From Altererythrobacter epoxidivorans (lineage in GTDB: Bacteria > Pseudomonadota > Alphaproteobacteria > Sphingomonadales > Sphingomonadaceae): a stretch of DNA of 64,000 nucleotides. Under the pieces are notes generated by a model. It saw only the letters and a program-made list of their open reading frames with translations. It was not told where the DNA came from and ran no database searches. Positions 8,450 to 53,812 of the stretch are shown one piece after another. The DNA is taken from the NCBI RefSeq assembly GCF_001281485.1, contig NZ_CP012669.1, positions 2,139,501-2,203,500 of the forward strand, given 5' to 3'. The translations under genes and the position numbers were made by a program. Position 1 is the first letter of the stretch, and each line of letters begins with the position of its first letter.

Positions 8450-9424
8450 ATGATGACCGTCTATCTGACTATCGACACCGAATATTCTTCGGGGCTGGTC
8501 GAAGGCACGCGCCTTTCCGACCGCGCGGAGAACTACGCGCGCTCGATCGCCTGCATCTCGCCGGAAGGGCCGATCGGCATCCCCCACAAGCTCAGGCTGC
8601 TGGAAGAATACGGACAGAAAGCCGTGTTCTTCGTCGATCCGATGCCGGCGCTGGTCTGGGGCGTCGCCGCGATCGAGGATGTCGTCGCGCCAATCCTGGA
8701 GGCCGGGCAGGACGTCCAGCTGCACTGCCACACCGAATGGCTCGAGATCGCCGGTGCCGACAATCCATTCGGCGGCAGGACAGGCACCAACATCGCAGAT
8801 TTCGCTTTCGAGGACCAATGCCGGATCCTCGAATATGCGCGCGATACCCTTGTTGCCGCCGGTGCCCCCATGCCGGTGGCATTTCGTGCCGGCAATTACG
8901 GCGCCAATGACGATACCTTGCGTGCGCTGGCAGAGATCGGGATTGCCTACGACACCAGCTTCTGCCCCGCGATACCCGATGGCGATTGCAAGATCTCGCT
9001 CACACAAGACGATCTTGTGCCGATCGCACATTGCAACGTGATCGAGGTGCCGATCGGCAGTATCGGCGCCGTTGGCGGCGGATTGCGCCATGCCCAGCTC
9101 ACTGCCCTCTCGCTAAGGGAGATGAGGGCCGCCGTGCGCCACGCTCGCGACGCAGGGCAACAGCAGTTCACCTTCGTCTCGCACAGCTTCGAGCTGTTCA
9201 ATCGCCGAACCCTGGCTGCGAACAAGATCGTGCGTCGCCGTTTCGACGGACTGTGCCGCGACCTTAAGAGCATGCGCCGAGTGCGCACAGGCAATTACCG
9301 TGACGATCCGCCTGCAATCGCTCCGCAGGCTCTCCAGGCAGAGCCCCTGCCCGCCGATCCGATCCGCACCGGGCTGCGCGTCGCCGAACAGCTGGTTTCG
9401 AACACGCTCTATGGTGCGCTGTGA
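8450..9424 (+). CDS. WalW-like polysaccharide deacetylase
   Basis: Predicted NodB-fold deacetylase acting on N-acetylated or O-acetylated glycan. The 324-residue protein begins MMTVYLTIDTEYSS, where TIDTE supplies the catalytic and metal Asp. The metal histidines lie in LHCHTEW (about residue 96), and FRAGNYG follows later. No signal peptide is visible, so it probably acts on a cytoplasmic or membrane-face precursor. Its stop overlaps the GTG of the next gene by four bases, so the two are co-translated. The pairing with a FemAB/BioF2-like acyltransferase recalls exopolysaccharide loci of sphingomonads. The substrate is unknown. Confidence 0.8.
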   Translation: MMTVYLTIDTEYSSGLVEGTRLSDRAENYARSIACISPEGPIGIPHKLRLLEEYGQKAVFFVDPMPALVWGVAAIEDVVAPILEAGQDVQLHCHTEWLEIAGADNPFGGRTGTNIADFAFEDQCRILEYARDTLVAAGAPMPVAFRAGNYGANDDTLRALAEIGIAYDTSFCPAIPDGDCKISLTQDDLVPIAHCNVIEVPIGSIGAVGGGLRHAQLTALSLREMRAAVRHARDAGQQQFTFVSHSFELFNRRTLAANKIVRRRFDGLCRDLKSMRRVRTGNYRDDPPAIAPQALQAEPLPADPIRTGLRVAEQLVSNTLYGAL

Positions 9425-10335
9425 GCGGGGCTGCAGCTTCGATTGATTTTACGATAGGTTCGCGCCGCTTGCTGAGCGTGCCGCGCAGGCTTGCGACATG
9501 GTCTTTCTGTCTCGATGACCTTTTGAGCGGACGAGTGCCGCCAGCACCTGACGATGCCGAAGCTGGCGACGGATACCGGGTTCTGTCTGCACCTGCTGGC
9601 CAGTTGGATGACATAGCGGGAAGGTTCCCCGATCATGCCATCGGCGGACGGCAGGATTACGCTCGGCACTACATCGACATGTCGGGTAGCTTAGATGACT
9701 ACATGGCGCAGTTTTCGGGCAAGACGCGCTCCACGCTCAGGCGGAAACAGCGCAAGCTCGCCGAAGAATGCGGCGGTGCGTACGAGCTGCGGGAATACCG
9801 GACACCCGGTGAGGTCGCCCGGTTTCTCGAGCAGGCCCTGCCCCTGTCGGCGATGACATACCAGGCCAGGTTGCTCGATGCCGGACTTCCTGAAGCACCC
9901 GAGGCGCATGCGGAGCTTTTCACGCTGGCAGAACAGGATCGCCTGCGCTGCTACCTGCTGGGCAAGGGCGATGAGGCGCTCGCCTATCTCGCCTTGCCGG
10001 TCGAGGGCGAGACGCTGGTCTATGCCTGGCTCGGCTATCATCCGGAGTGGGCACGGCTGTCGCCCGGCACTGTGCTGCAGATGGAGGCGCTGGAGCGCCT
10101 GTTTGCCGAGGATCGTTATCGCTGGTTCGATTTCACCGAGGGCGAAGGCGCGCACAAGGCAATGTTCGGCACCGGCAGCATCGATTGCGCAAGCTTCCTC
10201 CTGCTCCGGAAAACGCTTGCCAATCGTGCGCTCATGGGTGCCCGCGGCGGCTTCGATGCCGCTATCGTCGGGGCGAAGGCCATCGCCGCTAGGACCGGGG
10301 CCGAGGCGCTTTTGAGAAAAGCGCTGCGGGCATGA
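9421..10335 (+). CDS. FemAB/BioF2-like GNAT acyltransferase
   Basis: Acyltransferase of the BioF2-like (FemAB-related) GNAT group, 304 residues from a GTG overlapping the upstream stop (GTGA). The C-terminal half shows the family pattern: a basic segment KTRSTLRRKQRKL (about 100-112), then GYHPEWARLSPGTVL, and YRWFDFTEGEGAHKAMFGT as the last strand and helix. The group includes enzymes that aminoacylate or acylate cell-surface glycans and peptides; the donor and acceptor are unknown here. Co-translation with the deacetylase argues that both edit the same molecule. Confidence 0.78.
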   Translation: MSGAAASIDFTIGSRRLLSVPRRLATWSFCLDDLLSGRVPPAPDDAEAGDGYRVLSAPAGQLDDIAGRFPDHAIGGRQDYARHYIDMSGSLDDYMAQFSGKTRSTLRRKQRKLAEECGGAYELREYRTPGEVARFLEQALPLSAMTYQARLLDAGLPEAPEAHAELFTLAEQDRLRCYLLGKGDEALAYLALPVEGETLVYAWLGYHPEWARLSPGTVLQMEALERLFAEDRYRWFDFTEGEGAHKAMFGTGSIDCASFLLLRKTLANRALMGARGGFDAAIVGAKAIAARTGAEALLRKALRA

Positions 10336-11130: not shown

Positions 11131-11562
11131 TTAGCCCTCCACCACGTCGAGACCCATCGAACGCGCGGAGCCTTCGATGATCTTGGTTGCCTGTTCGATA
11201 TCGTTTGCGTTCAGGTCGGCCATCTTGGTCTGGGCGATTTCAGCAAGGGCCGAACGCTTGATCGTTCCGGCCGAAACCTTGCCTGGTTCCTTCGAACCCG
11301 ACTTCAGCTTTGCAGCCTTCTTGATCAGGAAGCTCGCTGGCGGGCTCTTGGTGACGAAGCTGAACGAACGGTCGGCATAGACCGTGATCGTGGTCGGAAT
11401 CGGCATGCCCTTTTCAAGGCTGTCGGTCGCAGCATTGAAGGCCTTGCAGAATTCCATGATGTTCACGCCGCGCTGACCCAGTGCAGGGCCGATAGGCGGC
11501 GAGGGATTGGCGGTGCCGGCAGGCACCTGCAGCTTGATATAGCCGTCGATTTTCTTGGCCAT
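11131..11562 (-). CDS. rplK: 50S ribosomal protein L11
   Basis: L11 binds the GTPase centre of 23S rRNA and is needed for RelA stringent control. The 143-residue protein starts [16 protein letters not shown], carries the conserved [16 protein letters not shown] (proline hinge) and ends in the RNA-binding helix region with [14 protein letters not shown] very strong ribosome-binding site AAAAGGAGG precedes ATG 11560-11562. In most bacteria nusG lies directly upstream. Here nusG is 9 kb away at 20562, so rplK must rely on its own promoter or on read-through. Confidence 0.99.
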
Positions 11563-11586
11563 CGTTGGCCTCCTTTTCTCACTTTC

Positions 11587-11610
11587 GCCACGCCTCTTTC
11601 GAACCGTGGC
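11587..11610 (-). promoter_or_regulatory. Stem-loop in the rplK-rplA leader
   Basis: GCCACG (11587-11592) and CGTGGC (11605-11610) make a six-base-pair stem with a 12-base loop, about 25 bases upstream of the L11 start. L1 commonly autoregulates the L11-L1 operon by binding a leader structure. Whether this hairpin is that site cannot be told without a structural comparison. Confidence 0.3.
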
Positions 11611-11992
11611 TCATGGTAAGCGGTCAAGCGGCCCGCCCAACTGGGTTGGAGCGAACCTCCCGCGCGGATTTCCCGATCGGTGATTGGGAAGGCGCGCACA
11701 TAGCGTCCTGTGCGCCAAATGCAAGCGATTCGAGCCTGCAGCACCGAGGGCAAATCCTATTGGATGGAACACATGGAACACAGTCCTGTTCGCAGAAAAG
11801 CTCGCCCTGGAATGCGCGAATTTCTTCTGACGCGAGAGGCAGAGCGAGAGGAGCAAGGGTCACTTCGCCTGCCTACGATCCGGTAACGCTGTAGGAAAAC
11901 GCGGCAATTTGAACTGTTTGTTATTGCCGGAGATTTGCTCTTCGCATAGCCACCAAGGGGACTGGATCAGTCGAAACGCGCGAGGGATGCCA
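11611..11992. other. Intergenic region between divergent rplK and the Sel1-like gene
   Basis: About 380 bases between two divergent genes with no convincing coding frame on either strand. It holds the candidate rplK promoter (11697-11727) and must hold the promoter for the Sel1-like gene, which I cannot place. It also marks one edge of the insertion that separates rplK-rplA from secE-nusG. Confidence 0.6.
11697..11727 (-). promoter_or_regulatory. Candidate rplK promoter
   Basis: The minus strand reads CGCTTGCATTTGGC, then after a 15-17 base spacer CTATGTG. The same CGCTTGCWTTTG motif occurs upstream of secE (21505-21534) at a similar distance from a TTTAAA box. The recurrence in two translation operons is the main support; the -10 match is weak. 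Confidence 0.3.
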
Positions 11993-12751
11993 ATGAAAAT
12001 CCGGAAACTTCGTCTTGCAATCATGGTCGGCTTGGGCGCGATGATCGCGGCTCCGATGTCGATCGCCTCAGCGCAAGATGACCCACGGATAGCAAAGGCT
12101 GCGCAGCACGCGAAAGCGTGCGAGGGCGGAAACGCAGAGGCATGTTACCAGCGCGGGCTGCTCGCCTACATGTTCCCGAACAGACTGTCGGAGCAATTGC
12201 GCTATTTCGAGCGCGCCTGCGCCGCAGACCATGCAACGGCCTGCCTCCAAGCGGCGGAGGGCTGGGAACATGGGCCTAACCGCAATCCCGACAAGGCGAA
12301 GTTTCGCGCACTGATGCGCAAGGCCTGCAACCTTGGCAACAAGTCCGGCTGTTCAAGATACGCCATGATGGCGACGTACGGGTGGAATGGTCCGGTCGAT
12401 TTTGCAGACGCGAAGTGGGCCTTCGACAAGGACTGCGAGCTTTCCAAGGGCAGTCAGTTCGAGAGTTGCGACGGCGACAAGATCATCGCCGATGCTCGGG
12501 GCAAGTACGAAGCCCGCCAGGATTTGTACAAGCGCGCTGCAGCCTTGCCGCCGAGCAGCGCCCCGAAACCAGCAAAGGTCGACACGACCATCACCGAGGA
12601 CATGTATGTGAAACAGTCCGGCAGTCGCAGCAATGCGCGGGACACCAGCCGGTCGGGCTATACCTCTTGCACCAAGAGCGACGGCAGCCGGGGCCAGCGG
12701 TACTGGTATTACGGCTTCGACAACAAGCGCAAAGAGGGACCCTGCCTCTAA
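11993..12751 (+). CDS. Secreted Sel1/Hcp-like cysteine-rich repeat protein
   Basis: Secreted protein of 252 residues with Sel1-type helical repeats. The signal peptide ends near SIASA|QDDP. Three repeats carry a paired-cysteine signature with seven residues between (CEGGNAEAC, CAADHATAC, CNLGNKSGC), as in disulfide-stapled Hcp proteins such as those of Helicobacter. The C-terminal 70 residues are a basic Ser/Arg/Tyr-rich tail with two more cysteines. ATG 11993 follows GAGGG at good spacing, while the nearby in-frame ATG 11987 does not. Function is unknown; Sel1 repeats are protein-interaction scaffolds, here probably periplasmic. Confidence 0.75.
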   Translation: MKIRKLRLAIMVGLGAMIAAPMSIASAQDDPRIAKAAQHAKACEGGNAEACYQRGLLAYMFPNRLSEQLRYFERACAADHATACLQAAEGWEHGPNRNPDKAKFRALMRKACNLGNKSGCSRYAMMATYGWNGPVDFADAKWAFDKDCELSKGSQFESCDGDKIIADARGKYEARQDLYKRAAALPPSSAPKPAKVDTTITEDMYVKQSGSRSNARDTSRSGYTSCTKSDGSRGQRYWYYGFDNKRKEGPCL

Positions 12752-12795
12752 GCCAGGACTGCCGGTCCGGCCCCTTCCGGGTTTATCCGAAACGA

Positions 12796-12847
12796 CCTGC
12801 CGCGCGGCGCCTTTGGTCACTGGCGTAGCGCGGCAGGCTAGGATTGC
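12796..12847. terminator. Long hairpin between convergent genes
   Basis: CCTGCCGCGC (12796-12805) pairs perfectly with GCGCGGCAGG (12838-12847), with a further short stem inside. It lies between the Sel1-like gene and the TonB receptor, which converge. No U-tract follows, so termination strength is uncertain. Confidence 0.45.
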
Positions 12848-12856
12848 GGATGCAAG

Positions 12857-14971
12857 CTAGAACCCGGCTGTCAGCCTGACCCATACCCCGCGGCCCGCGC
12901 CGGGCAGCTTTTCTCCCAAAGCTACGTCGGAAGCGCCGACACGGTTCACCCCGGCAAGGTGCGGCTGGTACCAAGTGTCGAACAGGTTCTCGACCCCTGC
13001 CCCCAGCGCAAGATTGTGGCCAAGCGCATACTGGCCGAACAGTCCGACAACGGCATAACCATCGCTCGGCAACTCGCCATTGGTGGCCGAAACCTTGTCC
13101 TGCTTCGCCACTGCGGTCAGTTCGGTGCCGAAGGTCAGGCGGTCGCCGCGCCACGCAGCCGAAACCGTCAGGTTGGGCGGAGCCACGCGGTAGAGGTTGT
13201 CGTCCACGTCGCGCCGCTTCGCACGCACCCAGCTTGCCGTACCGGCGATCTCGATCCTGCCGACCGGTCGTAGCCGGAAATCGAGGTCCACTCCGTAAAG
13301 CTCGGCATCGGTATTGCGGAACATCAGCGGGGTCGGATCGCCGTTCATCGCCGCCACCATCTCGACCGGGCTATCGACCACGCCGACAGTCGCATCGAAC
13401 GGCGTCCCCTGGATGTAATCGTCGACGCGGCGATAGAATATCGTGGGGCGCAGCATGACCGCATCGCTCTCGTAATCGACGCCCAACTCGGCGATCCATG
13501 CAGTCTCCGGGCGCAGGTCCCGGTTGCCGACGTAGATATTGCCGTCGGCAAGACCATAGCTCGCCTCGGTCGGAAGCCATGCGAAGCGTTCGAGCAGGCT
13601 CGGTACGCGGGTCTTGCGGGCCAAGGTCAGTCGCGGCGTCAGCGCGCCCATCGGCATCCAGGCGCGAACGACGACATCGGCCACCGTGTCGGAAAGGCTG
13701 CGGTCGCTGGCGATGAAGGCATTGGCGAGACCGCGTGGCCCCATCGGCACCGCTGCGCCGAGTTGCGGAATGCCGGCAGACTGGTCGTAGCGGTCGACCC
13801 TCGCGCCGATCTGGAACTCGGCAACCCCTATGCCGCCGCGCCACTCGGCAAAGGCACCCAGCCGCTCCGACACCAGCCCCGGCTGCGCATCGAGGAAGAA
13901 GGCTGCATTGGCGGGATTGGTGATCCGCACCTGCTTGTCGGTAAATTCGAGATCGCCGCCGATCGTGAGGTTGCGGTTATCCTGGCCGATCCGCAGCTTG
14001 ACCTCGCCCGTCATGGTGTCCGCATCGGCGAAGGTCGCCCGGGCATTGGGCGCGGGAGGATTGCGCAGCGTCTGGTTGTCCATCAGGTGACGGACCGAGA
14101 CCTGTCCCAGCCGCACTTCCAGGCCGAGATCGTCGGCGATCTCTCCGCGAAAGCCGCCCTGCACGAAATCGGTGTTGAAATAGATGATGTCCATCGCGAA
14201 GGGCGGATTGCCCGTCGGGTCGGTTTCGTTGCGGCGATATTCGACGAACAATTCGCCCGGACCGGTGCGAAACCCTGCATGCAAGCCATATTGCGTCCGC
14301 TCGTAGCCTGTGCCCCCCGCACGGGCGCCCGGGATCTCGTAGTCATCGCCCTCTTCGCGGCTGGCGATCACGCCCAATCGCCAGCGCTCATTGGCGATGC
14401 CGATAGTGCCGCCTGCGGCATAGCTGTCGTCTACGCTGCGGTACTGGGCCGCGACATGGCCATGCGCCTCGAAATCGCTGCCCTTGCCAAAGCCCGTTTC
14501 GACCAGCACGGCATTGATCGCACCGGCGAGCCCCGGCCCTTCCGATACGGGCGCGACCCCGCGGGCGAGCTCGATCCGTTCGAGCAGGACCGATGGAGCA
14601 TAGTGCATCGGCGGGTCCATCGCATTGGGACCGCCGCTGGCAAAGCGCTGACCGTTGACCTTGCCGACCACGCGCTCTCCCGAAAGGCCGCGATATGATA
14701 GCTGGCCGGAAATCGGGCCGTTGCCGACCAGCGCGCCGCCCGGTGCACGAGCGGCAATCGCAGCAGCATCGGCAGGCAGCGCGATCTCTGCTGGCGGGTC
14801 GAGCCTGTCGACCTGCTCGCTACGGTATCGGGTGGCACTGACCACGATGGTATCGGTCAGGACCGCGTCGGCACGGTCCGTTGTGCCCGTCTCCTGCGCA
14901 GAGACGGTGGATGACATTGCAATGGTGCAGCCTGCAAGAAGGGCTGCCTTGAACTTCAATTCGAAAGACAT
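12857..14971 (-). CDS. TonB-dependent receptor, probable copper type
   Basis: Outer-membrane TonB-dependent receptor of 704 residues from ATG 14969-14971; a TTG 18 bases upstream is in frame but less likely. The signal peptide ends near STVSAQ, the TonB box is DTIVVSATR (40-48), and the protein ends in an aromatic residue (RLTAGF). The plug contains GPNAMDPPMHYAP with an MDPP motif at 118-121, reminiscent of the Met-containing metal site of OprC/NosA copper receptors. A DUF2946 gene lies 85 bases upstream on the same strand, a pairing seen with copper receptors. Copper uptake is therefore a reasonable but unproven role. Confidence 0.82.
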   Translation of the reverse strand: MSFELKFKAALLAGCTIAMSSTVSAQETGTTDRADAVLTDTIVVSATRYRSEQVDRLDPPAEIALPADAAAIAARAPGGALVGNGPISGQLSYRGLSGERVVGKVNGQRFASGGPNAMDPPMHYAPSVLLERIELARGVAPVSEGPGLAGAINAVLVETGFGKGSDFEAHGHVAAQYRSVDDSYAAGGTIGIANERWRLGVIASREEGDDYEIPGARAGGTGYERTQYGLHAGFRTGPGELFVEYRRNETDPTGNPPFAMDIIYFNTDFVQGGFRGEIADDLGLEVRLGQVSVRHLMDNQTLRNPPAPNARATFADADTMTGEVKLRIGQDNRNLTIGGDLEFTDKQVRITNPANAAFFLDAQPGLVSERLGAFAEWRGGIGVAEFQIGARVDRYDQSAGIPQLGAAVPMGPRGLANAFIASDRSLSDTVADVVVRAWMPMGALTPRLTLARKTRVPSLLERFAWLPTEASYGLADGNIYVGNRDLRPETAWIAELGVDYESDAVMLRPTIFYRRVDDYIQGTPFDATVGVVDSPVEMVAAMNGDPTPLMFRNTDAELYGVDLDFRLRPVGRIEIAGTASWVRAKRRDVDDNLYRVAPPNLTVSAAWRGDRLTFGTELTAVAKQDKVSATNGELPSDGYAVVGLFGQYALGHNLALGAGVENLFDTWYQPHLAGVNRVGASDVALGEKLPGAGRGVWVRLTAGF

Positions 14972-15056
14972 GGGAAATTCCGCTGACAAGTGTCGCTGCG
15001 CGGGCGGACACTCGGGTCACACCACGCCAGGCGACGGATAAATTAAGGGTGGCTTG

Positions 15057-15470
15057 TCAGGCAGTGAGAGGCGGCGCGCGCAAGGGCGGCCGCAAGCGCT
15101 CGATAGGCGCAATTGCCGGTGCGTCGACTGCGGCATCCGGATTTACGGTGAAGACCGGCGGTTCGGGAACCCAGATGCCAGCATCCGTGCCGAGAGCGGC
15201 CTGGGCCAGCGAGGCAAAGTCGCAATGCCGTTCGCCCGACGCATCGTCAGATTGCCGCGTTTCACTGTCCTTCAGCGGGATTTTGATCCGCAGGTCGGCG
15301 CCGGTCGCATTGCAGACCTTCACCGAGAGGGTGGCCGCTCCGGCATCGCTATCGGGCATATACCCTTGCGGAACGATTGCGCGCACGCCCAGCATCAGCA
15401 CGAGTGCCAGCAGCATCGCGAGCCTGTTGTCCCGGGTAAGGTTGCGCCATCCGTCCACTGCGCGCCTCAT
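15057..15470 (-). CDS. DUF2946-like membrane-anchored protein
   Basis: A 137-residue protein with one N-terminal membrane segment (AMLLALVLMLGVRAIVPQGY, about 18-37), followed by the VPQGYMP motif and a conserved-looking HCDFASLAQAAL. This is the pattern of DUF2946 proteins, small envelope proteins of unknown function often encoded next to copper-related receptors. The C-terminus is proline-rich. It is the first gene of a two-gene unit with the receptor downstream and is divergent from the Dlt-like operon at 15754. Confidence 0.65.
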   Translation of the reverse strand: MRRAVDGWRNLTRDNRLAMLLALVLMLGVRAIVPQGYMPDSDAGAATLSVKVCNATGADLRIKIPLKDSETRQSDDASGERHCDFASLAQAALGTDAGIWVPEPPVFTVNPDAAVDAPAIAPIERLRPPLRAPPLTA

Positions 15471-15753
15471 AGCCGAAAGCGGCAGCGGGAAAAGCCGAAT
15501 AGATCAAATTCGCACCGCAACGGCCCAACGCCTTCCCGTTCATGGCAAAATTGCACCGTCGCACCCGCTCCGGTGGGAATTTGTTAACCAATCTTTCCTA
15601 GGAAACTCGGGCATCAACCAGGGGGTATGCATGCTGGACCGGGATACGCATTAACTCTGATTCTTGTCGTTAGCCTTTTACCGGGCGACGACGCGATCGG
15701 CAGGACAATGCGACCGGGCAAGCACCGCATGACTTCGGAAGCTGGAGTTCGAA

Positions 15754-16578
15754 GTGTCGTTTCACGTGATCGCAAGTACCGGCAGAACCGCGACGACGTT
15801 TCTCGCACGTGCGCTCGACAGCCTTTCTGGCGTGGCCGCCTGTCACGAGGGCTATCGCGGTTCCGACAAGGATAGCGAACCACTCCTCCCCTTGGTGAAC
15901 CTCGAAAACCGCCAGGCATATCTGAGCGCGGAAGCCGCCGAACGCGTCGTCAGCGCCAAACGCAGCCCGACCGTCATTGCCGAAAAAATGGCCCAGGCCG
16001 GATGCGAAACGCTGGTCGATGTCGCCTATTACAACCCTACAATCGCCGATGCCCTGCTGAAGGCGCATCCCGAAATGCGCATGGTCGCGATCATTCGCGA
16101 GCTGGAGCCCTTCGTCCGGTCATCGACCGCAATGAGCGGCGAAGACCTGCTTCCGGTCGGCTGGCCCGACCCGGGCAAGCAGTTGTCCCCGCGCGAACGC
16201 TTCATCGAGATGGGCCGGATCCGCCCTGCCAAGGGGACGCCGGAAGACGCCGCGTGGAACGACTGGTCCGCCATCAAGCGCAATATCTGGCTGTGGCGCG
16301 AAACCAACGACCTGCTGCTGAAGGCTCGCAGCGCTTTCGGCGCGCGCGTCCTCGTGCTGCCATTCGAAGAATTGAAAGCCGGTCCCGAGGCCTACCTCGC
16401 CCGGATCGCCCGGCACTTCGGCATCGATGCCGCAGGAATTCCCGCCGCCATTGCCGGCGCAGAGAACCACAAGAACCGCAAATCAACCGGATACCAGATC
16501 GGCCCGATGGCTGAATGGACCGATGATGAGAAAACCTACGCCCGCGAGGCGCAAGAAATGATCGGAATGATGATATGA
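15754..16578 (+). CDS. Sulfotransferase-like protein, first gene of Dlt-like operon
   Basis: A 274-residue protein with a sulfotransferase-type phosphate loop, STGRTATTFLARAL (8-21), corresponding to the 5'-phosphosulfate-binding loop of PAPS-dependent enzymes, and a candidate 3'-phosphate site around IIRELEPFVRSS (about 113). It starts at GTG 15754 after GGAG. The stop overlaps the carrier-protein ATG by four bases, tying it to the operon at 15754-20467. Possible roles are sulfation of the same envelope polymer that the operon aminoacylates, or another use of the fold. The family call is sound; the substrate is unknown. Confidence 0.65.
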   Translation: MSFHVIASTGRTATTFLARALDSLSGVAACHEGYRGSDKDSEPLLPLVNLENRQAYLSAEAAERVVSAKRSPTVIAEKMAQAGCETLVDVAYYNPTIADALLKAHPEMRMVAIIRELEPFVRSSTAMSGEDLLPVGWPDPGKQLSPRERFIEMGRIRPAKGTPEDAAWNDWSAIKRNIWLWRETNDLLLKARSAFGARVLVLPFEELKAGPEAYLARIARHFGIDAAGIPAAIAGAENHKNRKSTGYQIGPMAEWTDDEKTYAREAQEMIGMMI

Positions 16579-16829
16579 AACACGTCAGCGTCGAAGAACT
16601 CGTATCCCTGATCGACACCACGCTTTGCGAAGTCAGCGGCACCGGCAGCCTGTCGAGCCCGGTCCTGCCCGATTCCCAGATGGGTGAACCGGCTGAATGG
16701 GATTCGCTGGCCTTCATCGCGGTCTTCACCGCGGTTGCGCAGAAGTACCAGGTCGACCTCGCCGACGACGATGCATTCCACTTCACCTCCGTGCCGACGA
16801 TGCACGCTTTCCTCAACGAGGTGCTCTGA
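16575..16829 (+). CDS. Stand-alone acyl/aminoacyl carrier protein (DltC-like)
   Basis: An 84-residue carrier protein. The phosphopantetheine attachment serine is Ser44 in EWDSLAFIAVF, the usual DSL motif at the start of helix 2. It overlaps the sulfotransferase stop by four bases (ATGA) and ends two bases before the GTG of the adenylation enzyme. In Dlt pathways the carrier DltC receives D-alanine from DltA and hands it to the MBOAT DltB. The gene order here, with the same partners, supports an equivalent role. It could carry another amino acid or acyl group. Confidence 0.87.
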   Translation: MKHVSVEELVSLIDTTLCEVSGTGSLSSPVLPDSQMGEPAEWDSLAFIAVFTAVAQKYQVDLADDDAFHFTSVPTMHAFLNEVL

Positions 16830-16831
16830 AC

Positions 16832-18271
16832 GTGACGCGCCTGTGGGATGCGATCGAGCAGCGGCTCGAAACCGAAGGTGACCGCGCCGCATTCGATTCG
16901 GCCTGGTCGCAGCCGATGAGCTATGCGCGGCTGCGCGAACTGACCGCAGCTATCGCCGGGGCATCCGACGCAGACGGCCCGGTGGCGATCGTCGCCAACC
17001 GGTCATTCGAAGCCTATGTCGCGGTGCTTGCCTGCTTTCGCTTCGGCAGGACGTTCGTGCCCTGCAATCCCACTTTCCCGGTCGAGCGTCTGAAGAAGAT
17101 CATCGACCGTTCCGGCGCGGTCGAGTGCCTGTTCGATCCGGCACATGCCGACATCGCTGCGCAGTTCGACATTCCGTCGCGGCCGATCGACCTGATGGTC
17201 GATGGTGCCGACAGGAAACCTGCCCAGCCAGCCGATGGCGATGTCGTGTACCAGCTGTTCACTTCGGGCAGCACGGGCGAACCCAAGGGCGTTCCGATCG
17301 TCCATTCGAACCTGTCGCATTACGTCACCAACATCATCGAAACCGTCGGGATCGAGGATCACTGGCGGGCGACGCAATTCTTCGATCTCAGCTTCGATCT
17401 TTCGATGCATGACATCTTCGTCAGCATGATGTCGGGCGGAACGCTGGTTCCGGCCAAGGACATGGATTTGATGATGCCCCACCGCTTCATCGCATCGAAC
17501 GCCATCGATATCTGGTTCTCCGTCCCCCTTCTCGCGATTGCTGCCTCGCGCGGTCAGGCTGCCATGCCGACCGATGCGCGCGTGAAGAAAGCGATGTTCT
17601 GCGGCGAGGCGCTTCCCGGCGGATATGCCGAGGCCATGTCTGCACTGGTCGAGGACGGCGGCGAGATCTGGAACCTATACGGTCCGACGGAAGCCACCAT
17701 CGCCTTTACCGCCCACAAGCTGTCCGAAAGCGATTACGCGATGGGTGCGGTTTCGCTCGGCGCACCGTTCGGTGACAACAGGGTCGCGCTCCTCGCGAAC
17801 GGCGAAGTTGTCCCGGTCGAGCCGGGGCGCGACGGCGAACTGCTGCTGGGTGGTCCGCAGGTCTTCGACGGGTACCAGCCCGCAATCGACAAAGATCCCT
17901 TCGTAAGCTCGGATGACGGAACGCGGTTCTATCGCACCGGCGACCTCGTTCGTATCAGCGACTGCAACATCGACTATGTCGGCCGGATGGACAGCCAGGT
18001 AAAAATCCGCGGCCACCGGGTCGAACTCGGCGAAATCGAAAGCATCTGCAAGAAAGTCGCCGGGGTCGACGCGGCAGCAGCCGTGGTCATGGGCGATGCA
18101 GCGAATCCGGTGATCGTCATCGCGTTCCAGGGCAATAGCGAGGCGGATTTCTCCGGCCTGTCGAGCACGCTGCCATCCTACATGATGCCGAAGCAATTCC
18201 TGCATTTTTCCCAGCTGCCGACCAACGACAACGGCAAGATCGACCGGAAAGCGATCAAGGAACAGCTATGA
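16832..18271 (+). CDS. Amino-acid adenylation enzyme (DltA-like)
   Basis: A stand-alone AMP-forming adenylation domain of 479 residues with no condensation or carrier domain. Core motifs are A3 TSGSTGEPKGV (144-154), A5 LYGPTEATI (282-290), A7 YRTGDL (367-372), A8 VKIRGHRVELGEIE (390-403) and the A10 lysine 469 in NGKIDRK. FDLSMHDIF (188-196) contains Asp189 where PheA and DltA have the Asp that binds the amino group of the substrate, so an alpha-amino acid substrate is predicted. The start is GTG 16832, two bases after the carrier stop; later ATGs would cut into the fold. Confidence 0.88.
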   Translation: MTRLWDAIEQRLETEGDRAAFDSAWSQPMSYARLRELTAAIAGASDADGPVAIVANRSFEAYVAVLACFRFGRTFVPCNPTFPVERLKKIIDRSGAVECLFDPAHADIAAQFDIPSRPIDLMVDGADRKPAQPADGDVVYQLFTSGSTGEPKGVPIVHSNLSHYVTNIIETVGIEDHWRATQFFDLSFDLSMHDIFVSMMSGGTLVPAKDMDLMMPHRFIASNAIDIWFSVPLLAIAASRGQAAMPTDARVKKAMFCGEALPGGYAEAMSALVEDGGEIWNLYGPTEATIAFTAHKLSESDYAMGAVSLGAPFGDNRVALLANGEVVPVEPGRDGELLLGGPQVFDGYQPAIDKDPFVSSDDGTRFYRTGDLVRISDCNIDYVGRMDSQVKIRGHRVELGEIESICKKVAGVDAAAAVVMGDAANPVIVIAFQGNSEADFSGLSSTLPSYMMPKQFLHFSQLPTNDNGKIDRKAIKEQL

Positions 18272-19314
18272 TCAAGTTCCTGATCGCGCCGCTTCTTGCG
18301 GCGGGCACCGCCGCGGCGATGATCTGGGTTGGTGCCGAAGAACAAACATACGATCTCAACGTCGCATTCCATTGCAGCCACGAGGTTGCCAATGCCGACC
18401 TGCCTGCCGCGGACATTCTCGTCATCGGCAATAGCCAGACCGGGGCCTCGATCGACCAGGCCTATCTGCAGCAACTGATCGCGCCCGAAGGCGGCGTAAC
18501 CGTCGAAAAGTTGGCCGTGGTTCAGGCGAACATCGTGACGCTGCGCATGATCGTGGACGAATATATCGAGAATCGCGGCGCTCCGAAGCTGGTGGTTTAC
18601 CAGCCGATGGTCGTGCTGGCCGAACACTGGCAGCAGCCGGCCGGCCACCCGATCCATCCGCGTGCGACCGTCGCCTACCAGGACTGGGACAAGCTCGTCG
18701 CGCTGCAAAAGGACGCCAGATCGAGCCCGACGGGATCGTGGCTGCCGCATTGGGCTGAAAAAGGTTTCCGCACGATCCCCGCCATGTGGGTCGACCGCCA
18801 GGTGGAACGCATCACCGCCACGCTCAGCATTCCGCGCATGGCCGAACCCAAGGAAGCCTGCCGCACAGAGGCCAAGTTCCAGCTTGCCGGCAACTGGCCC
18901 TACGGCACCCTTCCTCTCAAGAAAGGCGATAATCCGGGCGAAGTGATGGACGCTGCCAAGCGGCAGGAATGGCAACACGATATCGAACAGCGCAAGGCGG
19001 CAGATGTGTTCTCCGACAGCCGCGTTTTCGAGATCGACCAGAACCGCAAGCTGCTCGCCGATATCAGGGCTGCGGGTAGCGAGGTCGTGATGGTCGGATA
19101 TCCGAGCATGGGCCGGAGCGCTGCCGACGCGCAGGATTTCGCCGACTTCGGCAAGGCCCTGGGCGGGGAAGTAATCGACATTCGTTCGCGCCTGACGCCT
19201 GAGCAGCAGGGGCGGATCGAGGAAATCTACCGCGATCCGATCCACCTCAATTTCGAAGGTGCGCAGATCATCACCGAGTACATGGCCGGCGAACTGAAGG
19301 GGCGCATCAAGTGA
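18268..19314 (+). CDS. Membrane-anchored SGNH-like transferase (DltD-like)
   Basis: A 348-residue protein with one N-terminal membrane anchor (about 3-21) and a large extracytoplasmic domain. LVIGNSQTG puts a candidate nucleophile at Ser56, and DPIHLNFEG near the end gives Asp323 and His326, the Asp-x-x-His block of SGNH hydrolases. Topology and catalytic layout match DltD and AlgJ/AlgX-like proteins, which finish the extracytoplasmic transfer step. It overlaps the adenylation gene by four bases and the MBOAT gene by four bases. Sequence similarity to DltD is not obvious by eye, so the role rests on architecture and context. Confidence 0.72.
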   Translation: MIKFLIAPLLAAGTAAAMIWVGAEEQTYDLNVAFHCSHEVANADLPAADILVIGNSQTGASIDQAYLQQLIAPEGGVTVEKLAVVQANIVTLRMIVDEYIENRGAPKLVVYQPMVVLAEHWQQPAGHPIHPRATVAYQDWDKLVALQKDARSSPTGSWLPHWAEKGFRTIPAMWVDRQVERITATLSIPRMAEPKEACRTEAKFQLAGNWPYGTLPLKKGDNPGEVMDAAKRQEWQHDIEQRKAADVFSDSRVFEIDQNRKLLADIRAAGSEVVMVGYPSMGRSAADAQDFADFGKALGGEVIDIRSRLTPEQQGRIEEIYRDPIHLNFEGAQIITEYMAGELKGRIK

Positions 19315-20360
19315 TCAATCCGCTTACGCACCTGCTGTTTCTGGTCGCCGCATGGCTTGTGTTCGGGCTTGCCGGGCAACGCCGTCCGGCGCTGATCCTG
19401 TCGCTGTTCGGCATTGCTTTCCTGGCGCTCTATGCGCCGATCTCGCTGCTCTGGATTGCCTTCACCGCTGCAGAGGCCAGCCTGCTGGTGCTGTGGCTGG
19501 AGAAGAAGGACCGCACCAGCGACCTCAGGCAATACCTGCCCTACATCCTGCTGCTGAACCTGCTGTTCGTGGAACTGCATCCCGATATCCTGCTGATCTC
19601 TGTCGAGACGCTGGCAATATCGTTCTCGACGATCCGCATCTTCATGACCGCAAAGCAATTGCTGGCCCTGCGATCGGGTTTCGAGCGCAGCGAACTGAAG
19701 TGGATCTGGGCTGCCGCCTATTACTTGCCCGCGCTGATCGTGGGTCCTGTGTTTTCCGGGATGGAACTGCGCAAGCAGGCCGAAGCCGATGAGCGCCCGA
19801 TCCTGACCGCTCAGAACTTCCGCTTCCTGCTGACCGGCATCGTGACGGTCGTGCTGATCAATCCGTTCCTGATGAAGGTCGCGCGCGAGATCAGCGGATC
19901 GCCGCGCACGGTCGATCTCGGCTTCGAAGGCGCACCGCTGTTCTTCTTGGTGCTGTTCACCGGCTTCTATGGCCAGAGTCTGATCGCGGAATACAGCTCG
20001 CGCCTGTTCGGGCGGACGCTGCCCTACAACTTCGACCGTCCCTGGCAGGCGACCAATATCCGCGATTTCTGGCAGCGCTGGCACCGTTCGATGGCGAATT
20101 TCGTCATGCAGTATATCTTCCTGCCGCTGAACATGCGCGGGATGAATGCCCGCTACGCCACGATTGCCGCCTTCGTCTTCATGGGCCTGTGGCACAATCT
20201 TTCGGCTGGCTACTTGCTCTGGGGCTTCGCCCACGGGTCGCTGCTCGCCTTCTGGCCCAAGAAGATCGAGAGCGATCTGGGCAAGACGCTCGAACGGATC
20301 GTCACATGGGCCGCGGTAATCGGCCTTTCCTACGTCGCAAACTATAGCTGGCTGGCATGA
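19311..20360 (+). CDS. MBOAT-family membrane O-acyltransferase (DltB-like)
   Basis: Polytopic MBOAT protein, 349 residues from GTG 19311, which overlaps the previous stop. Family motifs are RPWQATNIRDFWQRWHRS (243-260, with His258) and the essential-histidine motif FMGLWHNLSAGYLLWG (His295 at GLWH). These match the AlgI/DltB branch. In the Dlt pathway the MBOAT takes the acyl group from the carrier protein in the cytoplasm and passes it across the membrane to a tyrosine on DltX. The C-terminus (YSWLA) carries no fused shuttle motif, in keeping with a separate microprotein gene right after it. Confidence 0.88.
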   Translation: MINPLTHLLFLVAAWLVFGLAGQRRPALILSLFGIAFLALYAPISLLWIAFTAAEASLLVLWLEKKDRTSDLRQYLPYILLLNLLFVELHPDILLISVETLAISFSTIRIFMTAKQLLALRSGFERSELKWIWAAAYYLPALIVGPVFSGMELRKQAEADERPILTAQNFRFLLTGIVTVVLINPFLMKVAREISGSPRTVDLGFEGAPLFFLVLFTGFYGQSLIAEYSSRLFGRTLPYNFDRPWQATNIRDFWQRWHRSMANFVMQYIFLPLNMRGMNARYATIAAFVFMGLWHNLSAGYLLWGFAHGSLLAFWPKKIESDLGKTLERIVTWAAVIGLSYVANYSWLA

Positions 20361-20467
20361 AGAACTCGCGCGAATACCTCCTGATCGCCATGTGGCTGGT
20401 CATTGGCCTCGTCCTCTTGGGCTATGTCTCGCCGGGCGACGTCGAAATTCCCTACGCCGAATATTGA
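20357..20467 (+). CDS. DltX-like membrane microprotein (36 residues)
   Basis: A 36-residue frame whose ATG overlaps the MBOAT stop (ATGA, four bases), the same coupling seen at most joints of the operon. It has a short basic N-terminus (MKNSRE), one membrane segment (about residues 8-24) and a C-terminal tail ending IPYAEY. In DltX the last six residues form an acyl-shuttle motif whose tyrosine carries D-alanine. As I recall that motif, the tyrosine is third of the six and the last residue is aromatic, which fits here (Tyr33, Glu35, Tyr36). The tail would face the periplasm by the positive-inside rule. It is short enough to be missed by gene finders. Confidence 0.72.
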   Translation: MKNSREYLLIAMWLVIGLVLLGYVSPGDVEIPYAEY

Positions 20468-20479
20468 GCGCGCAAAGGA

Positions 20480-20503
20480 AACGGGCAGCTTTCGCCGCCC
20501 GTT
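20480..20503. terminator. Hairpin between the Dlt-like operon and nusG
   Basis: AACGGGC (20480-20486) pairs with GCCCGTT (20497-20503). It lies just past the microprotein stop and before the convergent nusG stop. It lacks a clear T run on either side; the minus-strand side continues TCCTTTG. Confidence 0.5.
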
Positions 20504-20561
20504 CGTGATGCGATCGCAAGGCCGTGACCGGGCGCACTTTCGTGCACACTAAGCCTGAAGG

Positions 20562-21098
20562 TTACTTGACCAGTTCGACCTGTTCGAAGTCGAGTTCGAC
20601 CGGGGTCGCACGACCGAAGATCGAAACCGAAACCTTGACCTTGGCCTTGTCGAAATCGAGCTCTTCCACCACGCCGTTGAAGCTGGCGAAGGGACCGTCG
20701 AGCACCTTGACCTGGTCGCCGATTTCATAATCGACATGAATGTCGCGCTTGGGCGCAGCCTTCGCTTCTTCGACACCGCCGAAGTAACGCGCCGCTTCCT
20801 TTTCGCTGATCGGCTGCGGCTTGTTGCCCGAGCCAAGGAAGCCGGTGACCTTGGGCGTGTTCTTCACGAGGTGGTACACGTCGTCGGTCATCTTGAGCTT
20901 TGCGAGGACGTAGCCCGGCATGAACTTGCGTTCGACCTGGACCTTCTTGCCGCGCTTGACCTCGGTGATGGTCTCGGTCGGGACCTGAACGTCCTCTACC
21001 GCTTCCGACAGGCCCAGGCGTTCAGCCTCGGAGATGATCGCGTCGCGCACCTTGTTCTCGAAGCCGGAATAAGCGTGGATGATGTACCAGCGAGCCAT
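20562..21098 (-). CDS. nusG: Transcription termination/antitermination factor NusG
   Basis: NusG binds RNA polymerase and links it to Rho or the ribosome. The 178 residues include the NGN domain beginning MARWYIIHAYSGFE, with FMPGYVLAKL and VTGFLG, and a KOW domain (about 120-178) with GDQVKVLDGPFASFNGVVEE. It follows secE by 67 bases on the same strand. The usual next genes, rplK-rplA, are not adjacent: 9 kb of other DNA intervenes. Confidence 0.99.
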   Translation of the reverse strand: MARWYIIHAYSGFENKVRDAIISEAERLGLSEAVEDVQVPTETITEVKRGKKVQVERKFMPGYVLAKLKMTDDVYHLVKNTPKVTGFLGSGNKPQPISEKEAARYFGGVEEAKAAPKRDIHVDYEIGDQVKVLDGPFASFNGVVEELDFDKAKVKVSVSIFGRATPVELDFEQVELVK

Positions 21099-21534: not shown

Positions 21535-21664
21535 TCACGCCAGCCTTCGGGGCCCGGTCATTGCAACCCGGTTGCTGTTGAAACTTTTGCGCTGGCCATG
21601 CGGCATCCTCCTCTCTAGCTTGCCCGCTTTACTAAATACGGGACGTTTGAGGGGAATACCAACG

Positions 21665-23188
21665 ATGGCAAATGCCACACCGCCAAGCCTTGGCGAACGG
21701 ATGATCGAACCGGTCACCAACCTTTCCGATTTCATCTGGGTGGGAACCTGGAACGGCCAAGAGGTCATCCCTTTCCCCCCCATGACCATCTTCCTCCTGG
21801 GCATGGGCCTGTGGATCATGGTCGGCCTGAAATTCTATCCGATCGTCAAACTGGGCACCGCCATCAAGGGCCTGTTCGCTGGCCGCAAGAGCACCGGTGA
21901 AGGCGAGATTTCGCCCTTCGCGGCGCTTTCGACCGCGCTGTCCGGGCAGGTCGGCACGGGCAATCTGGCCGGTGTCGCCACCGCCATTGCGCTCGGCGGA
22001 CCCGGCGCCATCTTCTGGATGTGGATCACGGCATTGTTCGGCATGGCGCTGGCCTTTGCCGAAGGTTCGCTGGCGATCCGTTATCGCGAGCGTACCAGCG
22101 ACGGCGTGCTGCGCGGCGGCCCGATGACCTACATCATGATGGGCCTTGGCAAGAAATGGACATGGCTCGCCGTGGTCTTCTGTCTCGGCACGTTGTTCTC
22201 GGCGCTGGTCACGGGGAACTCGATCCAGGCCAATGCAATGGCCGACGGCATGAACGAACTGTTCGGCATGCCCGAATGGCTCGGCGGGCTGATCACTGCG
22301 GCGCTGGTTTTCATCGTCATCATCGGTGGCATCAAGTCGATCGGTAACGTCGCGGAAAAGGTCGTGCCCTTCATGGCAGCGGCCTACATCGTCATGGCGG
22401 TGATCGCGCTGATCCTGAACTTCGGGGACCTCGGTGAAACCTTCGCGCTGATCTTCCACGGGGCGTTCAACCCGCAGGCAGCGAGCGGCGGCTTCGTCGG
22501 CGCGGCCATGATCATCGCGATCCGTGCCGGTGTCGCGCGCGGGCTGTTCTCGAACGAAGCAGGCCAGGGTTCGACCGCCATCGCCCACGCGGTGGCGCAG
22601 ACCAACGATCCCGAACAACAGGGCCGCATGGCCATGCTCGGCACCTTCATCGACACCATCGTGATCTGCACCATGACGGCGCTCGTGATCCTCACCGTGC
22701 GCGGCGACTTCACCGCCGGCGGTGAAGCGGTGCTGCACGCCTGGCAGTCCGACAAGGTCGGCTTCGAGATGACCAGCGGTGCCTTTGCCGCGGCTTTTCC
22801 GATGATGCTGGGCGGTGTGCCGATCGGTACGCTGGTCGCTTCGATCGCGCTGATCCTGTTCGTCTTCACCACGCTGCTGACGTGGTCCTATTACGGCGAG
22901 CGGGCGATCACCTTCCTCTACGACCGGATGAAGGGCTCCAACCGTTCGGGCGAGAAGAAGCTGCACATGGCATGGCGCGTGTTGTGGTGCGTGGTGATCT
23001 TCCTCGGCGCTGCGCAGCCTTCGGAACTTGTTTGGCGCCTTGGCGACATTTCCAACGCTGCAATGGCCCTGCCCAACCTGCTGGCGCTGGCCCTTCTTTC
23101 GGGCGTCGTCTTCAAACTTGCCAAGGGTGACCGCACCGCAGGCAAGGACCACTTCGAAGATACGCCGGAAGAGCCCGAGGAGTACTGA
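21665..23188 (+). CDS. Sodium:alanine/glycine symporter (AGCS family)
   Basis: Inner-membrane sodium-coupled transporter for small amino acids, 507 residues with about 10-11 membrane spans. SGQVGTGNLAGVATAIALGG and ARGLFSNEAGQGSTAIAHA are the AGCS core motifs around the substrate and sodium sites. ATG 21665 is preceded by GAGGGG; an upstream in-frame ATG at 21572 would add 31 unrelated residues. The C-terminus is acidic. It is divergent from secE and sits between tRNA-Trp and secE. Alanine or glycine is the usual substrate; exact specificity is not readable. Confidence 0.92.
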   Translation: MANATPPSLGERMIEPVTNLSDFIWVGTWNGQEVIPFPPMTIFLLGMGLWIMVGLKFYPIVKLGTAIKGLFAGRKSTGEGEISPFAALSTALSGQVGTGNLAGVATAIALGGPGAIFWMWITALFGMALAFAEGSLAIRYRERTSDGVLRGGPMTYIMMGLGKKWTWLAVVFCLGTLFSALVTGNSIQANAMADGMNELFGMPEWLGGLITAALVFIVIIGGIKSIGNVAEKVVPFMAAAYIVMAVIALILNFGDLGETFALIFHGAFNPQAASGGFVGAAMIIAIRAGVARGLFSNEAGQGSTAIAHAVAQTNDPEQQGRMAMLGTFIDTIVICTMTALVILTVRGDFTAGGEAVLHAWQSDKVGFEMTSGAFAAAFPMMLGGVPIGTLVASIALILFVFTTLLTWSYYGERAITFLYDRMKGSNRSGEKKLHMAWRVLWCVVIFLGAAQPSELVWRLGDISNAAMALPNLLALALLSGVVFKLAKGDRTAGKDHFEDTPEEPEEY

Positions 23189-53263: not shown

Positions 53264-53812
53264 ATGGCGTCGCAGCGGGACATGGCTTCCATATTGCAGC
53301 AGATGTTCGACCGGAGTTCGGTCGCGCTCACTCTTGCCGATGAAAATCAGGAAGACTGCCCGCTGATCGCGATCAACAATCGCTTTACTGAAGTCACCGG
53401 ATATCCGGCCGAAGATGTCATCGGGCGAAATTGCCGCTTCCTGCAACCGACTGGCGGTGCCGGGCCTGTACGCGACGACATCCGCGCATTCATAGACACA
53501 CCGGACCGGTCCGAAGGACGTTTCCTGATTGCGAATGTCACGCGCGATGGCACGCCATTCCTCAACATCGTCTATCTCGCTCGCCTGCACGGCCCGAGCG
53601 GAGAGAGGTTCATCCTCGGATCGCAATTCAATGTTGATCTGGATCAATCGCGTGTGTTCATTTATGAGCGTTCACTTCGGGAAAGTCTGAACGATATTAG
53701 GAACTTGTTCAGCGATCATGATTGGACCATGTTGGGAAGCATGAGTGCCATTGCCAATTCGGCTGCATTGATCGCGCAATTCCGGCTCGACAGGGAGGGG
53801 GCATCGGAATGA
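53264..53812 (+). CDS. LOV-domain blue-light sensor protein
   Basis: A 182-residue flavin photoreceptor. The LOV core has the adduct cysteine Cys57 in GRNCRFLQ, with NNRFTEVTGYPAEDVIG before it and FLNIVYLARLHGPSG after it. About 45 C-terminal residues form helices (SLRESLNDIRNLFSDHD and beyond), but there is no output domain. Its stop overlaps the ATG of the CheB-CheR-HWE kinase gene by four bases. The LOV protein may therefore control that kinase in trans, by binding or by flavin-dependent dimer change (inference). Confidence 0.92.
   Translation: MASQRDMASILQQMFDRSSVALTLADENQEDCPLIAINNRFTEVTGYPAEDVIGRNCRFLQPTGGAGPVRDDIRAFIDTPDRSEGRFLIANVTRDGTPFLNIVYLARLHGPSGERFILGSQFNVDLDQSRVFIYERSLRESLNDIRNLFSDHDWTMLGSMSAIANSAALIAQFRLDREGASE

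Follow-up and report, generated by a model that had tools for sequence, protein, structure and literature searches.

The Gram-positive dltXABCD operon couples an adenylation enzyme and a carrier protein to a short MBOAT acyltransferase without the shuttle motif, a tyrosine-motif microprotein and an anchored SGNH protein, parts which are all shared by the six-gene cassette described here. Among Gram-negative bacteria, the dra locus of Bordetella pertussis is reportedly dlt-like, and AlmEFG of Vibrio cholerae, the lipid A glycylation system, employs an adenylation enzyme and a carrier to modify the outer membrane; unlike the cassette, it is not known to use an MBOAT/SGNH pair for the final transfer. 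Dickeya possesses a Gram-negative dltBAC plus dltD locus, which resembles the cassette in that a Gram-negative host activates and transfers the group by means of DltA/B/C-type proteins, and differs from it in that, within the available portion of the source, no sulfotransferase is described; the term "dltX" does not occur in that text (PMC3544676). PatA/PatB and AlgI/J/X also represent an MBOAT and SGNH pair with an acyl-tyrosine shuttle motif, as in the cassette, the reported chemistry of this motif being common to DltX and PatA and similar to that expected of the cassette microprotein tip, and the available part of the source for this chemistry states that non-Dlt MBOAT-SGNH pathways have neither a carrier protein nor a microprotein like DltX (PMC12148441). 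In contrast to the cassette, PatA/PatB and AlgI/J/X use an acyl-CoA donor, lack a carrier protein and have the motif fused to the MBOAT C-terminus.

In the current work, a stretch of 64,000 nucleotides from Altererythrobacter epoxidivorans was analysed (hereafter named the window), of which positions 15754-20467 contain six densely packed genes, all on the + strand. This arrangement represents a rare cassette of scattered Gram-negatives that looks built for inner-membrane export of an activated amino acid by a tyrosine-tipped microprotein. The ORF coordinates bear out the tight packing proposed in the initial annotation, the junctions being (from 5' to 3') a 4-nt overlap, a 2-nt gap and three 4-nt overlaps, and the residues named there (the carrier DSL, SGNH Ser56/Asp323/His326 and MBOAT His258/His295) are all present, as is the 36-residue microprotein. 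Considering which genes are present and linked, how they are conserved, and the motifs and predicted folds of their products, the cassette probably encodes a Dlt-like transmembrane aminoacylation relay in which the sulfotransferase is a working part.

The complete cassette was retrieved at seven loci, corresponding to the window and six other genomes (five Pseudomonadota and one MAG labelled Acidobacteria), with an altered gene order at one of them (L013). This number is a lower bound: the scan of genome contigs, in which 80 of 595 stretches were kept, yielded at least two close loci. Because the same six genes recur at six further loci, the set is more than a chance assembly, and no homologous flanking ORF common to the loci was detected among the 279 flanking ORFs compared. 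Pairwise divergence of the parts is correlated over the seven loci for all 15 part pairs (Spearman 0.63-0.92; permutation counts of 0-49 of 5040, to be taken as approximate since the ranking of ties differed). As to neighbourhood conservation through the Sphingomonadales, which had been proposed as a check, the distribution is sporadic: among 114 genomes from the genus, 1 has the cassette, and a Sphingomonadales-wide operon was rejected.

On its right, the cassette is flanked by nusG (20562-21098, - strand; Pfam NusG, 94 bits), while rplK, encoding L11 (11131-11562, - strand), forms the left edge of a stretch of ~9 kb that separates the two genes here, as opposed to a spacing of ~115-2955 bp in 10 of the 11 retrieved relatives; neither gene belongs to the cassette. 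For rplK, relatives were present in 16 of 17 genomes, its own genome counted. A foreign base composition was not seen, with a GC content of 0.60-0.63 across the cassette and 0.58-0.65 in its surroundings. The sodium:alanine symporter gene adjoining nusG (21572-23188) was rejected as an alanine supplier, being located beside nusG in 5 of the 11 fetched relatives, none of which has the cassette MBOAT. Matches to the MBOAT were present in 135 plasmid records (20 of them listed), all below 60% identity and none spanning 80% of it; viral contigs contained distant MBOATs only (≤31% identity, except for two short pieces at 34-37%).

The third gene (16832-18271, + strand, GTG start) specifies a stand-alone amino-acid adenylation enzyme of 479 aa, which was compared directly, as were the other parts, with the dlt operon of Niallia taxi (L213) as a true Dlt control. 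It matches AMP-binding (Pfam, 178 bits), and amino-acid adenylation models outscore acyl-CoA ligases, though all remain below cut-off (TIGR01733 AA-adenyl-dom, 286 bits; DltA, 222-226 bits); for the DltA family TIGR01734 the score was 222 bits versus a cut-off of 559.85 and 680 for the control. Asp189 and Lys469 are invariant in 7/7 sequences, which also retain the amino-group Asp of the pocket. The pocket code DLHFMCLIAK has D, L, C, A and K in common with DLMTLCTVAK of true DltA, out of 10 positions; by reference codes such a code cannot tell apart D-Ala, Gly, Ser and Cys. The best single-domain PDB matches were 4oxi (187 bits), presumably AlmE, and, within 9 bits, DltA (178.6), so that AlmEFG resembles the cassette both in possessing an adenylation enzyme with a carrier and in its place among these top matches.

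The carrier protein (84 aa; 16575-16829, + strand, ATG start), with the DSL phosphopantetheine serine at Ser44, has an invariant W-D-S-L in 7/7 sequences. Its profile matches are sub-threshold only (Pfam PP-binding, E 0.018; NCBIfam ACP, E 0.0028), the ortholog at L184 had no Pfam match, and for phosphopantetheinyl transferase (PF01648) the host genome contains one match. Being weak, the carrier profile missed even dltC of the control operon, and therefore its failure to report a carrier must be read with caution for L021 and L081. Adenylation and carrier genes accompany the MBOAT and SGNH genes at all seven loci, so that the lack of co-occurrence which the initial annotation had regarded as contrary evidence was not found.

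The short MBOAT (349 aa; 19311-20360, + strand, GTG start) scores 72.8 bits with Pfam, and its His258 and His295 are invariant in 35/35 alignment rows (the query plus 34 homologs taken from the 120 listed, out of a total of 281). Its PDB sequence matches are DltB only, and hhalign against true DltB gave 99.1%; the DltB family model TIGR04091, on the other hand, returned 80.5 bits versus a cut-off of 375 and 519 for the true DltB control. In an unrooted phylogeny with long branches, the cassette MBOATs form their own deep clade (support 100/99), apparently apart from DltB of dltXABCD, and upon removal of L015, L021 and L185 a split sets them and the two DltB-type rows off from the 26 rows of AlgI type (96/96), with the same reservation as to root and branch lengths. 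The C-terminal shuttle motif was found in 0 of 108 members of the short MBOAT family (those of ≥330 aa out of 121 proteins, including P0007, a near-copy of the window MBOAT), whereas among 108 other MBOATs encoded at the fetched loci it is part of the protein itself in 104, taking the strict form FxYxxF in 102. It may be argued that the cassette performs an AlgI/PatAB-type acyl or O-acetyl transfer (using acetyl-CoA or a fatty acyl group), with the adenylation and carrier genes as incidental neighbours, yet this is very unlikely in view of the presence of both genes with the MBOAT at 7/7 loci, their co-divergence, the missing C-terminal motif and the top scores of the adenylation enzyme, which are obtained with amino-acid adenylation models.

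Instead of such a fused motif, the cassette encodes, as its last gene (20357-20467, + strand, ATG start), a single-pass membrane microprotein of 36 aa ending in IPYAEY, a predicted acyl shuttle with Tyr33 as its nucleophile. The C-terminus PYxx[FY] is present at 7/7 loci, which were located via the MBOAT and hence carry no word-search bias, and in 43/43 database relatives, a count that is partly built in because the database search picks candidates by shared 5-residue words and favours the tip. Each of the seven microproteins has a single hydrophobic segment with 1-4 basic residues ahead of it. Among the six ORFs this one is the most doubtful a priori; comparison with the nearest relative (L184) placed 17 of 31 base changes at third codon positions. 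No Pfam match was obtained, including to the DltX family PF12459 (control, 58 bits), and the motif is xPYxx[FY], with S, A, I or L at its first position, versus FxYxxF of dltXABCD, where the microprotein gene is first rather than last. The case for the microprotein being a DltX equivalent is nevertheless convincing. The separate shuttle microprotein emphasised in the initial annotation is present at 7/7 loci but is not unique to the cassette, since it also occurs outside classic dlt at L021, L081 and L015.

The SGNH/DltD-like transferase (348 aa; 18268-19314, + strand, ATG start) has a Ser56/Asp323/His326 triad that is invariant in 15/15 rows (the query, 9 of 14 matches and 5 locus proteins), in addition to invariant Cys36 and Cys198. 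The DltD families PF04914 and TIGR04092 were not matched (controls, 366 and 419 bits), and PDB searches gave 0 matches with the protein alone and a best E of 0.035 with its profile. Its AF2 model (pLDDT 88) has an N-terminal helix at residues 3-25 and a sole Foldseek match at E≤0.001, DltD 6o93; with a second aligner, plain SGNH esterases rank as high as DltD. DltD rows align over 259-269 residues versus 156-200 for the remaining rows of the VIA list, and the absence of AlgJ/AlgX rows from the VIA lists carries no evidential weight. Clustering of the SGNH and MBOAT proteins with O-acetylation families, another anticipated piece of counter-evidence, was not observed, given the DltD match of the former and the DltB-only PDB matches of the latter. 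A different destination of the product appears unlikely, in which the adenylation enzyme, carrier and sulfotransferase would make a sulfated aminoacyl compound, a small secreted metabolite, and the MBOAT/SGNH pair would attach it not to an envelope polymer but to a lipid or a small molecule: genes for condensation, reduction or export are missing from the cassette, the model of the SGNH protein has a membrane anchor, as in envelope modification, and both NRPS-annotated plasmid relatives inspected sit among glycan genes.

The first gene (15754-16578, + strand, GTG start) encodes a predicted cytoplasmic sulfotransferase of 274 aa, a part that dltXABCD does not have. A PAPS site is recognised by a 5'-phosphosulfate loop and a 3'-phosphate R-x7-S signature; TGRTAT and R115/S123, respectively, are invariant in 7/7 sequences, and the protein is predicted to be a PAPS-dependent sulfotransferase. 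It is present at all seven loci, and of 179 genomes from the family it was detected in 2, both of them cassette carriers and the only ones in that sample. By fold it is closest to tyrosylprotein sulfotransferases and to the sulfotransferase domains of polyketide synthases (curacin CurM and olefin synthase). In the PDB search with its profile the best E was 0.027, TRPV2 and CurM/olefin synthase being at chance level. The CurM and olefin synthase domains act on carrier-bound substrates; they are domains of polyketide synthases rather than stand-alone proteins and are not known to be linked to MBOAT/SGNH. These modelled fold matches suggest that a carrier-bound amino acid may be sulfated. The resemblance to tyrosylprotein sulfotransferases would also fit sulfation of the microprotein tyrosine, turning the shuttle off, an idea to which we assign very little probability: the model begins with a strand at residue 2 and has no N-terminal signal or anchor helix, while the basic residues ahead of the hydrophobic segment predict a periplasmic location for the tyrosine; moreover, a sulfated tyrosine could not accept the acyl group, and a single sulfotransferase fold serves many substrates.

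For the favoured aminoacylation relay, we infer the chemical steps, amino acid, acceptor and sulfotransferase substrate as follows. A small alpha-amino acid would be activated with ATP by the adenylation enzyme and loaded onto the phosphopantetheine of the carrier, from which the MBOAT would take the aminoacyl group at the cytoplasmic face and transfer it to the microprotein, whose Tyr33, at the periplasmic end, would receive it. From this tip the group would move on to the anchored SGNH protein and its Ser56, and that protein would form an ester on an extracytoplasmic acceptor, so that an amino-acid ester on an envelope polymer would be expected; to our knowledge, the cassette hosts are without teichoic acid. 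The sulfotransferase, using cytoplasmic PAPS, would most likely sulfate the carrier-bound amino acid prior to export, or else a precursor of the acceptor. Tentatively, a sulfated aminoacyl group might be made on the carrier and exported to give a zwitterionic ester on an envelope component common to unrelated Gram-negatives, the MBOATs being their own lineage beside the DltB and AlgI types.

The proposed Dlt-like logic holds for the mode of working, in that carrier, adenylation enzyme, SGNH protein, MBOAT and microprotein occur together at 7/7 loci. It does not extend to curated family membership, as the Dlt models miss the cassette proteins or score them far below the cut-offs when set against the true dlt operon; the cassette functions like Dlt without belonging to the Dlt families.

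The cassette brings together a carrier and a DltX-like microprotein in diderm bacteria, on an MBOAT branch of its own, and therefore would widen the range of the acyl-tyrosine shuttle by a further lineage, in which it could be tested independently. Being compact and self-contained, it could be deleted, moved to a laboratory strain and reconstituted, and its constant sulfotransferase hints at an unfamiliar chemical group at the cell surface.

The six plus-strand genes reported in the initial annotation (15754..20467), encoding a sulfotransferase, a carrier, an adenylation enzyme, an SGNH protein, an MBOAT and a microprotein, were all recovered at their positions; neighbouring genes overlap by 4 nt at four of the five junctions, and a 2-nt gap separates them at the fifth. 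The sulfotransferase, the AMP-binding enzyme and the MBOAT scored above cut-off in Pfam, the carrier and the SGNH protein were sub-threshold, and the microprotein had no Pfam match. In NCBIfam the adenylation enzyme came closest to models of amino-acid adenylation domains and of DltA, and the MBOAT to that of DltB, none of these matches reaching its cut-off; a PDB sequence search with the MBOAT returned DltB only (1.6e-8). As a control, a Niallia taxi plasmid (L213) carrying a true dltX-A-B-C-D run (dltC being read by eye) was used, the proteins of which pass the DltX, DltD, DltA and DltB models that the cassette proteins fail.

The association of carrier and adenylation genes with the MBOAT and SGNH genes recurs elsewhere, all six genes being adjacent on one strand in each of six other loci, namely L150 (genome G360), L151 (G152), L152 (G606), L184 (G1450), and L012 and L013 from an Alcanivoracaceae MAG and a MAG labelled Acidobacteria, respectively (MAG assignments which could be wrong). 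In L013 the order is MBOAT-SGNH rather than SGNH-MBOAT, the microprotein gene being last there too. Identity to the window proteins ranges from 74% (MBOAT, L184) down to 18% (SGNH, L152). None of 279 mechanically called flanking ORFs of at least 100 aa has a homolog at another of the seven loci (E<=1e-4), and across these loci the six parts diverge in step, their pairwise identities being correlated (Spearman 0.63-0.92), as would be seen for genes passed on together.

The adenylation enzymes of all seven loci retain the amino-group Asp189 and Lys469 of motif A10. At what we take to be the signature positions of its pocket, the window enzyme reads DLHFMCLIAK and five of the seven read DLHF[L/M/Q]CLIAK (true DltA: DLMTLCTVAK), the pockets of L184 and L152 being without the Cys; the substrate is likely to be a small amino acid. 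Among PDB entries, linear gramicidin synthase A ranks first by total score, but its 318 bits are spread over two domains, of which the better reaches 165.5; the best single-domain matches are 4oxi, presumably AlmE (187 bits), a further two with 184 bits, and DltA with 178.6. Phaeobacter and Leisingera plasmids (L214 and L215) encode, close to sulfotransferase genes and in glycan biosynthesis neighbourhoods, a protein annotated as NRPS whose adenylation domain shares 37-39% identity with that of the cassette.

The seven microproteins (36-47 aa) each possess one hydrophobic segment preceded by 1-4 basic residues, and all end in [S/I/L/A]-P-Y-x-x-[F/Y]; a profile search retrieved 43 database proteins, 43 of which end in PYxx[FY], a proportion partly built in as such a search favours shared words. 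In DltX and PatA-type MBOATs the acyl group is borne by the Tyr of a C-terminal FXYXXF motif (PMC12148441). Neither FxYxxF, a conservative variant nor PYxx[FY] terminates any of 108 cassette-type MBOATs (at least 330 aa), and of 108 other MBOATs from the fetched loci 104 carry the C-terminal motif, 102 of them in its strict form. With a far more permissive pattern, 56 of the 108 cassette-type tails do match, via an ANYxxL ending whose Tyr varies (kept in 31 of 35 rows). Because the motif is absent from these MBOATs and present on the microproteins, the shuttle Tyr is placed, as in Dlt, on a separate microprotein instead of the MBOAT, in agreement with the separate shuttle originally proposed.

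Other arrangements were encountered among the fetched loci. In Actibacterium sp. (L021:6661-9086), a 365-aa ORF in SGNH position and a 392-aa MBOAT without the shuttle motif accompany a microprotein of its own gene (49 aa, ending LPAYAEF), so that this may be a further split shuttle in a Gram-negative; cassette profiles, of which that for the carrier is weak, found no adenylation or carrier gene nearby. In Streptococcus peroris (L081:7737-10219), a 384-aa MBOAT that lacks the motif is grouped with an ORF of 390 aa in SGNH position and a small one whose product ends in FIYSEF; no adenylation gene was found next to these three, and a carrier could escape the weak carrier profile. In a Planctomycetota MAG (L015:4222-5554), the MBOAT (400 aa) again lacks the motif and a small ORF has the ending FRYANI; ~0.9 kb upstream lies an adenylation-like match of 87 bits. 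A Metabacillus plasmid (L185:2742-7088) encodes a carrier, an AMP-binding enzyme, a long MBOAT that itself bears FIYGGF at its C-terminus, and one further ORF; this MBOAT is possibly carrier-dependent with the motif fused, contrary to the published generalisation.

Twelve cassette-type MBOATs form one clade on a long branch (support 100/99). In the full 43-row tree, L213 and L081, both DltB-type, group with AlgI-type rows (fork support 87/38); with L015, L021 and L185 left out, cassette and DltB-type rows stand together against 26 AlgI-type rows (96/96). From this unrooted tree we conclude only that cassette-type MBOATs are a distinct deep lineage. Close relatives are rare and scattered: counting strong scores only (>230 bits with profile A1, built from the window MBOAT and 34 of 120 listed homologs), matches occur in 1 of 114 genomes of the own genus and in 3/397, 2/246, 2/385 and 2/398 genomes of the family, order, class and phylum samples, which overlap and each take in the window's own genome. 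The cassette-bearing genome itself is the sole positive in the genus of G360 (1/10), the family of G606 (1/120) and the genus of G152 (1/1). At E<=1e-20, 86 of 397 family-sample and 109 of 385 class-sample genomes match, those beyond the strong ones being other MBOATs at no more than 115 bits.

The window cassette sits within ~9 kb separating nusG from rplK, a distance of ~115-2955 bp in 10 of 11 fetched relatives (in the eleventh, nusG falls outside the fetched stretch), and this interval is a possible insertion hotspot. Within the genus it spans ~0.4-3 kb in seven of eight fetched members, L206 being >9 kb or rearranged, and ~9 kb in the window (11562-20562). The rest of the insert includes a TonB-dependent receptor and ORFs at 11909-12751 (no Pfam match over cut-off) and 15049-15654; no foreign base composition was seen. 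Elsewhere in the window are a 1158-aa protein uniting CheB, CheR, PAS and HWE histidine kinase domains (53722-57198) and a polysaccharide-deacetylase-like protein (8450-10335; sub-threshold) sharing a four-base overlap with a GNAT (Acetyltransf_6) protein.

A dlt locus in a Gram-negative is reportedly found in Bordetella. Among the open-access titles and abstracts listed by our literature search, none describes an MBOAT/SGNH/carrier cassette with a sulfotransferase, which is weak evidence of absence. A dlt locus is described for the Gram-negative Dickeya (PMC3544676). The original designation of the cassette as Dlt-like is retained for its way of working, which is probably that of Dlt, but not for family membership: judged by the curated Dlt models, which the L213 control passes, the cassette falls outside the Dlt families. 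It carries the sulfotransferase as a conserved extra enzyme.
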